Shown here piece by piece: positions 5,385 to 49,195 of a DNA stretch of 64,000 nucleotides (positions are counted from its first letter, which is position 1; each line of letters opens with the position of its first letter). Both the position numbers and the translations under genes were made by a program. The notes beneath the pieces were generated by a model, which was not told where the DNA came from, searched no databases, and was given only the letters and a program-made list of their open reading frames with translations. Origin of the DNA: Haladaptatus paucihalophilus DX253. GTDB taxonomy: Archaea; Halobacteriota; Halobacteria; Halobacteriales; Haladaptataceae. Where the stretch lies: assembly GCF_000376445.1 (NCBI RefSeq), contig NZ_AQXI01000001.1:1768962-1832961 (forward strand), read 5' to 3'.

Positions 5385-5480
5385 GAGGTGTGAGATTTCG
5401 ACAGATGAATTGGCCACCCACTCCGAGGACAAATGAAACATCGGAACTAGCATCCGCGCGAACGCAGCGAGCGCGGTTCA

Positions 5481-5620
5481 CCGTCAGCGAAGCAGCACTT
5501 CGCTGACGGCCTTTTTAGCGTAGATTTTTGCGAGCGGTTCGACGAGATGCGTGAAGCGCATCGAGGAGGACCCGAAGGAAAAAGGTACTACTCGAACGTT
5601 GCGGGAACAGAGTTCCCGCA
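5481..5620. repeat. Hairpin cluster A (three hairpins)
   Basis: Three perfect inverted repeats occur within 140 bases of a non-coding gap: 5481-5509 (12-bp stem CCGTCAGCGAAG, 5-base loop), 5546-5562 (6-bp stem GATGCG, 5-base loop) and 5600-5620 (9-bp stem TGCGGGAAC, 3-base loop AGA). The first is followed by CCTTTTTAG, so it could end transcription of the small membrane gene, but the other two have no such tail. The same arrangement recurs at 11078-11180 and 48914-49113. Confidence 0.75.
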
Positions 5621-5644
5621 GGCTCGACTTCGCTCCTTCGTCAC

Positions 5645-6808
5645 TCACTCGAAGGCGGCGATGCCAGTGAGATCCTGCCCCAGAACCAACGTGTGGATGT
5701 CGTGGGTTCCCTCGTAGGTGTACACCGTCTCCATGTTCGCCATGTGGCGCATCGGCGGGTAGTCCGTCGTGATGCCGTTGCCGCCGAGCATCTCGCGGGC
5801 GACGCGGGCTTGGTCGCGGGCCATCCGAACGTTGTTCCGCTTCGCCATCGAGACGTGCTGCGGGCGGAGGTCGCCGCGTTCTTTCAAGTCGGCGAGACGG
5901 TGGACGAGCAGTTGCGAGGTCGTAATCTGGGTCGCCATCTCGGCCAGTTTGTCCTGCTGGAGTTGGAACCGCGCGATGGGGCCGCCGAACTGGTCGCGTT
6001 CGGTGGCGTAGTCGCGGGCCGTCTCGAAGCAGTCGCGGGCCGCGCCGACCGCACCCCACGCGATGCCGTAGCGGGCCTGCGTGAGACAGGAGAGCGGTCC
6101 CTTCATCCCCTCGACGCCGGGCAGAACGGCGTCCTCCGGAACCGTGACGTTCTGGAGGCTGATTTCGCCCGTGATGGACGCGCGAAGCGAGAGTTTGTCG
6201 TGTATCTGGTTCGTCGTCACGCCGTCGCGGTCGGTCTCCACGAGGAAGCCGCGAACCGGCGAGTCCTCGGCGGAGCGGTCACGCGCCCAGACGACCGCCA
6301 CGTCCGAGATGGGGGAGTTCGTAATCCACGTCTTCGAGCCGTTGAGGACGTACTCGTCGCCCTCCTTTTCCGCGTAGGTTTCCATCCCCGACGGGTTCGA
6401 CCCGTGTTCGGGTTCCGTCAGGCCGAAACAACCGACCGCCTTGCCCTCGCCGAGGTCGGGAAGCCAGCGTTCTTTCTGCTCCTCGGACCCGTAGGCGTGG
6501 ATGGGATACATCACGAGCGCGCCCTGCACGCTCGCCATCGAGCGCAGGCCGGAGTCGCAGGCTTCGAGTTCCTGCATCAGCAGGCCGTAGGCCGTCTCGC
6601 TCAGGTTCGGCAGGCCGTAGCCGTCGAGGTTCGGCGCGTAGAACCCGAGTTCCCCCATCTCGGGGATGATTTCCTCCGGGAACGTCCCCGCTTCGTAGTG
6701 GTCTCCGATGTCGGGTTTGACGTGCTCTTCGACGAACTCGCGGGCGGTGTCCCGAACCATCCGCTCTTCCTGTCCGAGGTCTGCCTCCAAATCCACGTAA
6801 TCGAGCAT
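5645..6808 (-). CDS. Acyl-CoA dehydrogenase, glutaryl-CoA dehydrogenase type
   Basis: 387 residues, a full-length FAD acyl-CoA dehydrogenase with N-terminal helical, beta-barrel and C-terminal helical domains. The closest resemblance is to glutaryl-CoA dehydrogenase: the substrate-binding Arg is R89 in SGLRSMASVQG, and the catalytic base is E366 in TYEGTHDIHTLVLGQDLTG, both as in that subfamily. Other marks are CFGLTEPEHGSNP and WITNSPISD for flavin contact. It would oxidise glutaryl-CoA or a similar acyl-CoA in lysine, tryptophan or aromatic degradation; no pathway neighbours are present. A TATA element at 6831-6840 gives leaderless spacing. Confidence 0.92.
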   Translation of the reverse strand: MLDYVDLEADLGQEERMVRDTAREFVEEHVKPDIGDHYEAGTFPEEIIPEMGELGFYAPNLDGYGLPNLSETAYGLLMQELEACDSGLRSMASVQGALVMYPIHAYGSEEQKERWLPDLGEGKAVGCFGLTEPEHGSNPSGMETYAEKEGDEYVLNGSKTWITNSPISDVAVVWARDRSAEDSPVRGFLVETDRDGVTTNQIHDKLSLRASITGEISLQNVTVPEDAVLPGVEGMKGPLSCLTQARYGIAWGAVGAARDCFETARDYATERDQFGGPIARFQLQQDKLAEMATQITTSQLLVHRLADLKERGDLRPQHVSMAKRNNVRMARDQARVAREMLGGNGITTDYPPMRHMANMETVYTYEGTHDIHTLVLGQDLTGIAAFE

Positions 6809-10816: not shown

Positions 10817-11294
10817 CCTTGGCGAGGGGTAGGGCACGGGAGTGTTTCAAATCGTGCGTTTCGAACTCGACATGGGTCGGGATGGAACGACGTTGATAGT
10901 GGTGCCGTTGAAACTTCCAAGGTGTAGTTTTCGAAAGCCCCCGTCCACTCGTTGCGAGTTGTTGATATTTTTCCGTGACCTCAAATGCAGACGTCATTGA
11001 AACCGCAACCGCAAACCGCATCAGCCACACCCTCCCCAACCGATTGCGCTTCTCGCTTCGCTGTGATGCTCATCCACCGTCAGAGCAACGCTCTGACGAG
11101 CCATTCGCTCGTTCCGTTGTCACTCACGAAGACCTCGCACGCTACAGCACGACGACGCGGCCGAGAGTGGCCGCGTCGTCCCGCCAGCGCACGCCACAAC
11201 AGATATTCGAATGCGTGAAACCGACCGAGGAGATTCGAGATTTCCGTCGGAAATCTAGTCACTTTACCCCTCGCCGCCGAAAGACCCACACCTC
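10817..11294. other. Intergenic stretch with hairpin cluster B
   Basis: This 478-base gap separates two divergent genes. Its first part holds the promoter region of the hydrolase-fold gene. An open frame across 10985-11218 codes for a basic Ser/Arg/Thr-rich peptide unlike local proteins and is rejected. The recognisable structure is the hairpin pair at 11078-11180. Confidence 0.55.
11078..11180. repeat. Hairpin cluster B (two hairpins)
   Basis: Two perfect inverted repeats: 11078-11098 (9-bp stem CGTCAGAGC, loop AAC) and 11151-11180 (12-bp stem GACGACGCGGCC, loop GAGAGT). Between them is a CGCTCGTTCCGTTGTCACTC stretch resembling CGCTCCTTCGTCACTCACTC at the end of cluster A. No T-run follows either hairpin on the plus strand, so simple termination is unlikely. 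Confidence 0.7.
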
Positions 11295-47538: not shown

Positions 47539-48321
47539 ATGCGCGAACTACTCGAATCGGTGGCGAACGGGGAAACCAGCGTCGCCGAAGCGGAGGCGAT
47601 GTTATCTGGATACGCGACGAACGGGGCCGGACGGTTCGATGCGGCCCGCGAGCGGCGTCGCGGCGTCCCGGAGGCGATACTCGCCGACGGAAAGACGCCG
47701 AGCGAAGTCGCGGAACTCGCAACCACGGCCGTCGAAACCGCGGGCAGAGCGATAGTCACGCGGGTGGACGACGACCACGCGGGGGCGGTCCAGCGGAGGC
47801 TCGACGCCGACCACCCGGACGCGGACGTTCGGGTTCGAACGCGAGCGAACGTCCTCGTCGCCCACGCGCCGACCTTCGAACCGCCCGAGGTGAACGCGAC
47901 GGTCGGCATCGTCAGCGCGGGCACGAGCGACGCGATTCCCGCCGGGGAAGCCGCGGTCATCGCGTCGGAGATGGGCGCGACCGTCGAGGAGATTCACGAC
48001 GTGGGCGTCGCCTCCCTGGTCCGCGTGCTGGACGAGGTGGACGCCCTCCGCGCGGCGGACGCCCTCGTCGTCGCCGCGGGGCGCGAGGGCGCGCTCCCCA
48101 CGGTCATCGCCGGACTCGTGGACACCCCCGTTATCGGCCTACCGGTGTCGAACGGCTACGGCCACGCGAGCGACGGCGAGGCGGCGCTCTCGGGGATGTT
48201 GCAGTCGTGTACGGTGCTCTCCACCGTGAACATCGACGCGGGCTTCGTGGCGGGCGGACAGGCCGGTCTCATCGCGCGTGCCGTCGGCGCGGCGCGGGAA
48301 CGCGACGGCGAAAGGGAATGA
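47539..48321 (+). CDS. larB: Nickel pincer cofactor biosynthesis protein LarB
   Basis: 260 residues from MRELLESVANGETSVAEAE, the usual LarB start; a GTG three codons earlier is possible. The C-terminal half is an AIRC-like (PurE-related) domain with IVSAGTSDAIPAGEAAVIA and GLPVSNGYG. LarB carboxylates and hydrolyses nicotinic acid adenine dinucleotide, the first step towards the nickel-pincer cofactor of lactate racemase-type enzymes. LarC, LarE and a racemase are not next to it. A CTTTAAGTG element near 47469-47477 is a possible TATA. Confidence 0.93.
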   Translation: MRELLESVANGETSVAEAEAMLSGYATNGAGRFDAARERRRGVPEAILADGKTPSEVAELATTAVETAGRAIVTRVDDDHAGAVQRRLDADHPDADVRVRTRANVLVAHAPTFEPPEVNATVGIVSAGTSDAIPAGEAAVIASEMGATVEEIHDVGVASLVRVLDEVDALRAADALVVAAGREGALPTVIAGLVDTPVIGLPVSNGYGHASDGEAALSGMLQSCTVLSTVNIDAGFVAGGQAGLIARAVGAARERDGERE

Positions 48322-48758: not shown

Positions 48759-49195
48759 CGCTCGCACAATCGGATTCGCTTCGGATAGTTGTTAGGGTTC
48801 CAATCGTTTGAAGAAGAATGAAAGTCGGTTGTCGTCAGGATTCAGCGTTCTTCGGGGAGAGATTCGAGGGTTGTTGGAACGGATATCGGGACGACAGTTG
48901 CTGGGGAAAACGACCGCACCGCGTGCGGACGGGCGGCCGGAACCGCACGACCGCCACTGCTCACGGTTTCGCCGGACTTGTCCGGCTGACTGCCGAGCAA
49001 CGCTCGGCAATTTCACCGTTCGCTTTCGAGGTTGCTCCGCAACCTCGCCCGCCCTCGGAGTCCCCATACCTCCCCGGGCGCTCGGTCGATTCGCACGAGC
49101 GGTGCGAATCGACTGACCTGCGCGTCCTGCCGGTTGGTCGGCCTGCTGACTGTCGGGAAAATCGACGAGCAAAACAGAAATCGAGAACGGAAAGC
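48759..49195. other. Intergenic stretch with hairpin cluster C
   Basis: 437 bases before the Fe-S oxidoreductase gene's end. Open frames are not acidic and are rejected. The recognisable structure is the set of hairpins at 48914-49113. Confidence 0.55.
48914..49113. repeat. Hairpin cluster C (five hairpins)
   Basis: Five perfect inverted repeats: 48914-48928 (6 bp, loop CGC), 48971-48986 (7 bp, loop TT), 48991-49009 (8-bp stem TGCCGAGC, loop AAC), 49027-49047 (9-bp stem CGAGGTTGC, loop TCC) and 49085-49113 (12-bp stem GTCGATTCGCAC, loop GAGCG). The 12-bp stem with a 5-base loop and the 8-9-bp stems with 3-base loops are the same types as in clusters A and B. Confidence 0.75.

Follow-up and report, generated by a model that had tools for sequence, protein, structure and literature searches.

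REP, BIME and REPIN elements, which are linked to RAYT transposases, are short, intergenic, non-autonomous hairpin repeats that number in the tens to hundreds and frequently form inverted pairs. REP hairpins retain their sequence. Families A and B, two element families of Haladaptatus described here, share that general form, but in them the hairpins are the variable part, and several genomes are without a Y1-type enzyme. Integron attC sites are recognized through the folded structure of one strand while their sequence varies; A and B may work likewise through one folded strand, although they have many more conserved linker bases. Tandem GA/GA pairs between Watson-Crick pairs liken A to tandem sheared G-A motifs and kink-turns, but no kink-turn bulge was noted in A, whose G-A units repeat along the helix with a period of four bases.

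PATEs of Haloquadratum walsbyi are transposase-free, palindrome-bearing, dispersed elements that are homogeneous, being more than 90% identical to one another (PMC3119063). A and B are also dispersed, palindromic and too short to code. They differ from PATEs in their fixed linkers, in helices that vary and exchange between copies, in their tandem G-A helices and in having no IS605-like end at the three tnpB loci examined in the same genome. SMR-A are small repeats inserted within the palindromes of PATEs in Haloquadratum (PMC3119063). They have prominent terminal inverted repeats and measure about 110 bp. Module M, described below, resembles them in being nested in the palindromes of other elements and in being missing from the orthologous palindrome of the congener G400; its matches span 44-99 bp, with internal hairpins and approximate ends. 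A literature search whose coverage mostly left out subscription papers found the PATE and SMR work and no description of the A and B elements.

Three element families in one window

The window is the whole 64,000-nucleotide stretch analysed, taken from Haladaptatus paucihalophilus DX253; copies elsewhere in that genome (G000) were studied in fetched stretches. The original prediction held that three intergenic gaps share a single family of hairpin clusters, and all seven stems and loops that it named lie exactly where it placed them (Table 1). The window contains 30 perfect stems of at least 8 bp and 4 of at least 10 bp; 20 dinucleotide shuffles gave 7-20 and 0-3, respectively. A 12-bp stem never arose in 2000 shuffles of each gap, and the observed count of 8-bp stems was matched in 2, 0 and 0 of 2000. 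More than one such stem occurs in only 3 of the 37 window gaps of at least 100 bp, and these are the same three. The clusters far exceed chance, and the clustering is real.

The gaps are members of three non-coding structured element families of Haladaptatus: C in gap 1, A in gap 2 and B in gap 3. A single common family was rejected on blastn searches of the DX253 genome, which gave 31 matches for gap 2, 9 for gap 3 and only itself for gap 1; the expectation of a repeated element is thus correct for A and B and fails for C. The common geometry of a 12-bp stem beside 8- or 9-bp stems is a coincidence, since stem length is free to vary among copies. Conservation among the copies lies in the linkers and helix P1, and in A also in the tandem G-A pairs.

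Plain terminators had been judged inadequate, which holds for two of the three gaps. The 12-bp stem of gap 1 is directly followed by TTTTT and does look like a terminator; this combination of GC hairpin and T-run is absent from the window stems of A and B.

Table 1. Positions of the structured elements and their parts in the window.
Feature	Gap	Position	Strand	Evidence or remark
Element C	1	5453-5590	+	Ortholog in G396; predicted fold; single copy by blastn
C, GA helix	1	5454-5476	+	
C, hairpin, 12-bp stem, loop CAGCA, then TTTTT	1	5481-5509	+	
C, long-range stem, CCTTTTT with AAAAAGG	1	5510-5516 with 5579-5585	+	Fold
C, hairpin	1	5546-5562	+	
Hairpin outside C, 9-bp stem, loop AGA	1	5600-5620	.	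3' end of acyl-CoA dehydrogenase gene; read by eye
Flank, GACGTCATTGAAACCGCACCGC on +	2	10940-11024	-	Recurs beside many A copies of the DX253 genome
Family A core	2	11025-11197	-	31 blastn matches in own genome; R1 match, E 3.8e-8; family covariation
A, layout: GTGGCGTGCGCTGG - helix b - GCGTGCGAGG (two-hairpin module) GGATGAGC - helix a - GCAATCGGTTGGGGAGGGTGTGG	2		-	
A, conserved G-rich linker AATCGGTTGGGGAGGGTGTGG	2	11025-11045	-	
A, helix a (P3), GAU/AUC closing	2	11046-11069	-	Window copy without the usual GA/GA beside the closing pairs
A, optional two-hairpin module, interrupts GCGAGG/GATG	2	11076-11133	-	Found in several genera
A, hairpin, 9-bp stem, loop AAC	2	11078-11098		One of the two in the optional module
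A, helix b (P2), 12-bp stem, loop GAGAGT on +	2	11151-11180	-	Stem scan; family covariation
Family B element	3	48913-49127	-	R2 matches 49127-49015 (E 1e-8) and 49009-48913; genome copies; alignment
B, layout: GGACGCGC - hp2 - GCCCGGGGAGGTATGGGGACTCCGAGGGC - hp1 (module nested) - CCGCACGCGGTGCGGT	3		-	
B, nested module M within hp1	3	48952-49047	-	Ends approximate; contains the next two hairpins; missing from G400 ortholog
Hairpin, 8-bp stem, loop AAC	3	48991-49009		
Hairpin, 9-bp stem, loop TCC	3	49027-49047		
B, conserved G-rich junction GCCCGGGGAGGTATGGGGACTCCGAGGG	3	49052-49079	-	
B, hairpin hp2, 12-bp stem, loop GAGCG	3	49085-49113	-	Wholly different hairpin in orthologous G400 copy

Structure of family A

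Family A consists of variable helices set between fixed linkers. On the strand opposite CCCTCCCC, its consensus reads GTGGCGCGCGCTG - helix b - GYGCGAGGGATGA - helix a - AATCGGTTGGGGAGGGYGTGG, and the short linkers GGCGCGCGCTG, GYGCGAGGGATGA and AATCGGTTGGGGAGGG are near-invariant. Seed copies were picked by an exact 16-mer linker, so the conservation of that linker is partly built in; the helix counts are independent of the seeding. Helix a begins with GAU/AUC and continues with tandem G-A pairs that alternate with two Watson-Crick pairs. The helices of A are mixed in this way, and in both A and B the helices are interchangeable between linkers. The G-rich linker at 11025-11045 could possibly form a G-quadruplex. 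A separate 8-bp hairpin, AGATTTCC gtc GGAAATCT (11238-11256), lies outside the element, between it and an HD-domain gene.

Compensatory changes are abundant in the alignments of A and B, and the predicted structured character of the elements is borne out by covarying helices in both. Across 33 aligned copies of A, P1 is paired in 98.5% and helix b has both-side changes at 10 of 10 pairs. The A alignment contains 133 double-change cells, compared with 37.6 ± 5.8 after shuffling, a level reached in none of 500 shuffles; its structure was derived from the aligned sequences themselves, which favours it over slid controls.

The two strands of A are not equivalent. Folding of 109 copies gave a mean energy of -59.0 kcal/mol, compared with -46.2 for the opposite strand, and 170 GA/GA internal loops, compared with 19 in shuffles. 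Among the cells at fixed pairs in alignment A2, 56 hold G-U and 10 hold A-C. These figures concern A only; in B and C, one-strand G-A pairs were seen by eye. A double-stranded cruciform would be symmetric, unlike A, and a chromosome-organising double-stranded site, once suggested for these gaps, is unlikely for a family in which one strand folds so much better. On the best reading of the sequences, A would act through one folded strand, either as RNA or as single-stranded DNA.

Distribution and genomic setting of family A

Copies of A were counted with the covariance model R1. The DX253 genome has 41 matches (E<=0.01), all but one on its largest contig, and eight congeners have 1, 7, 15, 44, 56, 71, 93 and 103. 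Across the phylum, A is present in 48 of 393 genomes, all of them Halobacteriales and spread over 22 genera; it is found in 18 of 37 Halobacteriales, at 1 to 95 copies each. Among the matches listed for the exact 16-base linker are Haladaptatus, Natrinema, Haloterrigena, Natronococcus, Halosimplex, Halorussus, Halogranum and others, together with a few single bacterial matches that are without the remainder of the element. The A pattern had no match in IMG/VR, and one A copy had none among plasmids, a weak test given that only short linkers are conserved.

Elements of A are intergenic in 152 of 153 cases, judged by gene calls from a simple codon model. They prefer convergent gaps (41 convergent and 26 divergent, compared with 51 and 92 among background gaps longer than 150 bp), and their orientation relative to neighbouring genes is unbiased. 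In 65 of the 148 classified copies, the folding strand lies outside read-through from the neighbours. No conserved promoter was found upstream of A copies. Rfam (4227 families), searched at gathering and permissive thresholds, gave nothing above chance; its best match, mir-981 at 21.6 bits (gathering 51), lies outside the element. Elsewhere in the DX253 genome, the tnpB copies L038 and L039 (C2:286342 and C2:416036) end near GGCGGGGAGGATGTCA, which has GGGGAGG in common with the A and B linkers.

Family B, module M and element C

Family B has the consensus GGACGCGCG - hp2 - CCCGGGGAGGNNNGGGGACNCCGAGGGCGG - hp1 (seven copies aligned), with the near-invariant linker CCCGGGGAGGNNNGGGGAC. Both hairpins covary, with 21 double-change cells compared with 7.6 after shuffling (0 of 500 shuffles). 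The model R2 finds 2-7 copies in 8 of 9 Haladaptatus genomes and none in 234 other Halobacteriales, in a search whose model was built on Haladaptatus only and which distant relatives may escape. A weak R2 match at 47810-47939 on the minus strand (E 0.022) overlaps a predicted gene and is probably due to chance.

At the window's B locus, the sequence of G400, a sister species, is almost the same around the junction; G400 lacks the nested module M of about 94 bp and carries a different hp2, and B is absent from the orthologous locus in five other congeners. Module M was found eight times in the fetched DX253 stretches, each time in or beside an A or B element.

Element C is kept in one relative, G396, with matching flanking sequence. 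At the 3' end of the acyl-CoA dehydrogenase gene, the G396 ortholog lacks the stretch 5595-5650 with its 9-bp hairpin.

Hairpin replacement at orthologous sites

Hairpins of A and B are replaced or nested while the linkers and the site persist. For 18 of the 30 parsed A elements of DX253, an orthologous locus was found among the G400 stretches, with linkers about 92% identical and flanks at a median of 91%. Exchange was judged by ranking each ortholog among the G400 copies. For helix a, the ortholog's rank is that of a random copy (mean fractional rank 0.52; first in 1 of 15 same-subtype pairs), and for helix b a partial signal is retained (0.35; first in 3 of 15). A better match to a paralog than to the ortholog was dropped as a sign of exchange within a genome, since the top match among non-orthologous copies of the other genome was equally good.

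In the orthologous pair L027/L277, helix b is 95% identical and the helix-a region measures 126 and 11 nt; in L017/L265, one helix is conserved and the other is replaced. Several other sites differ in both helices. At the window's own A locus, G399 carries a minimal A whose hairpins differ, and A is absent from G394 and G398.

Rearrangements of paired copies were also observed. A convergent A pair, L033 (G000:C1:2289450-2289900), is inverted wholesale relative to its flanks when compared with G400 L266, and one of its helix b loops is also inverted relative to its own element. The A pair of L306 (G394:C1:380172) is missing from G396 C3, where a piece of the recurring 3' flank (CATTGGAGT...CTAGC) is left. 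This G396 site, which retains that piece of the flank, is the sole near-empty A site, and no clean empty site with a target duplication was found.

Mechanism and alternative explanations

The best explanation for gaps 2 and 3 is that they hold non-autonomous, dispersed intergenic repeats of haloarchaea that function or spread through single-strand folding and whose hairpins are exchanged, a reading whose chances are about evenly balanced. That hairpins joined by fixed linkers are swapped wholesale between copies of A suggests a mobile or recombining element of a kind not yet recognised. The folded strand would be exposed as single-stranded DNA during replication, repair or transfer, and the linkers may be recognized on that exposed strand. 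Hairpins could then be traded among copies by strand invasion, by template switching or by a recombinase that acts on hairpins, along the lines of REP, IS200/IS605 or attC systems. A Y1 transposase was rejected as the driver. Four of nine genomes (G000, G393, G394 and G399), including the richest in A, lack this enzyme (PF01797), which leaves a Y1-type mechanism without a present agent there, and the presence of the enzyme is uncorrelated with the copy number of A. No candidate enzyme for the exchange was identified in the genomes examined. A more far-reaching proposal is a haloarchaeal system of structure-guided recombination, in which linkers on one strand serve as the scaffold and hairpin cassettes, nested ones included, are actively exchanged among dozens of sites and between A and B; we regard it as rather unlikely.

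The main rival is a structured non-coding RNA family, in which the GA strand would be transcribed into a functional RNA with freely variable helices. Strong covariation, G-U pairs tolerated chiefly on one strand, tandem G-A pairs and optional modules common to several genera all suit an RNA, and other RNAs also have hypervariable stems. However, promoter-like conservation is absent upstream of A, random orientation to the neighbours leaves many classified copies without read-through on the folding strand, copy number runs from 1 to 103 within one genus, helix a is unrelated between orthologous sites and Rfam gives no match above chance. With this evidence, the RNA reading is possible but somewhat unlikely.

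The differences between orthologs, here ascribed to hairpin exchange, might instead reflect repeated independent insertion of whole elements at hot spots. Some of the apparent swapping could result from replacement of whole elements at a site: all copies have the framework in common, which would make a new insert look conserved, and both helices differ at several sites. Such insertion does not fit L027/L277 and L017/L265, which keep one helix while the other is replaced, or B, which retains the hp1 arms and junction with hp2 swapped, and it is unlikely as the explanation.

An origin as decayed IS200/IS605 or PATE ends, or as remnants of TnpB guide RNAs, is quite improbable. Transposase-free palindromic PATEs are invaded by SMR-A inside their palindromes, much as A and B are by M (PMC3119063), and tnpB ends in the DX253 genome bear GGGGAGGATGT. 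Set against this origin, the copies have no full-length homology, unlike the homogeneous PATEs (>90% identical, PMC3119063), and the genome richest in A has no Y1 transposase. The tnpB or omega-RNA ends were rejected as a source because no A or B motif is present at three tnpB loci of DX253. Double-stranded palindromes, whether nucleoid-protein sites, cruciforms or bidirectional terminators, are the least probable source, for although the elements are intergenic and enriched between convergent genes, G-A helices and wobble tolerance are possible on one strand only, most stems are without a T-run and stem sequence is unconstrained.

Significance

Family A, spread over many genera within a single archaeal order, appears undescribed in the literature searched. 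Covariance models are supplied for annotating haloarchaeal intergenic regions. With these elements, two questions become testable: by what route perfect hairpins change when the linkers between them do not, and whether, beyond the known Y1 transposases, archaea possess an enzyme for folded single strands.
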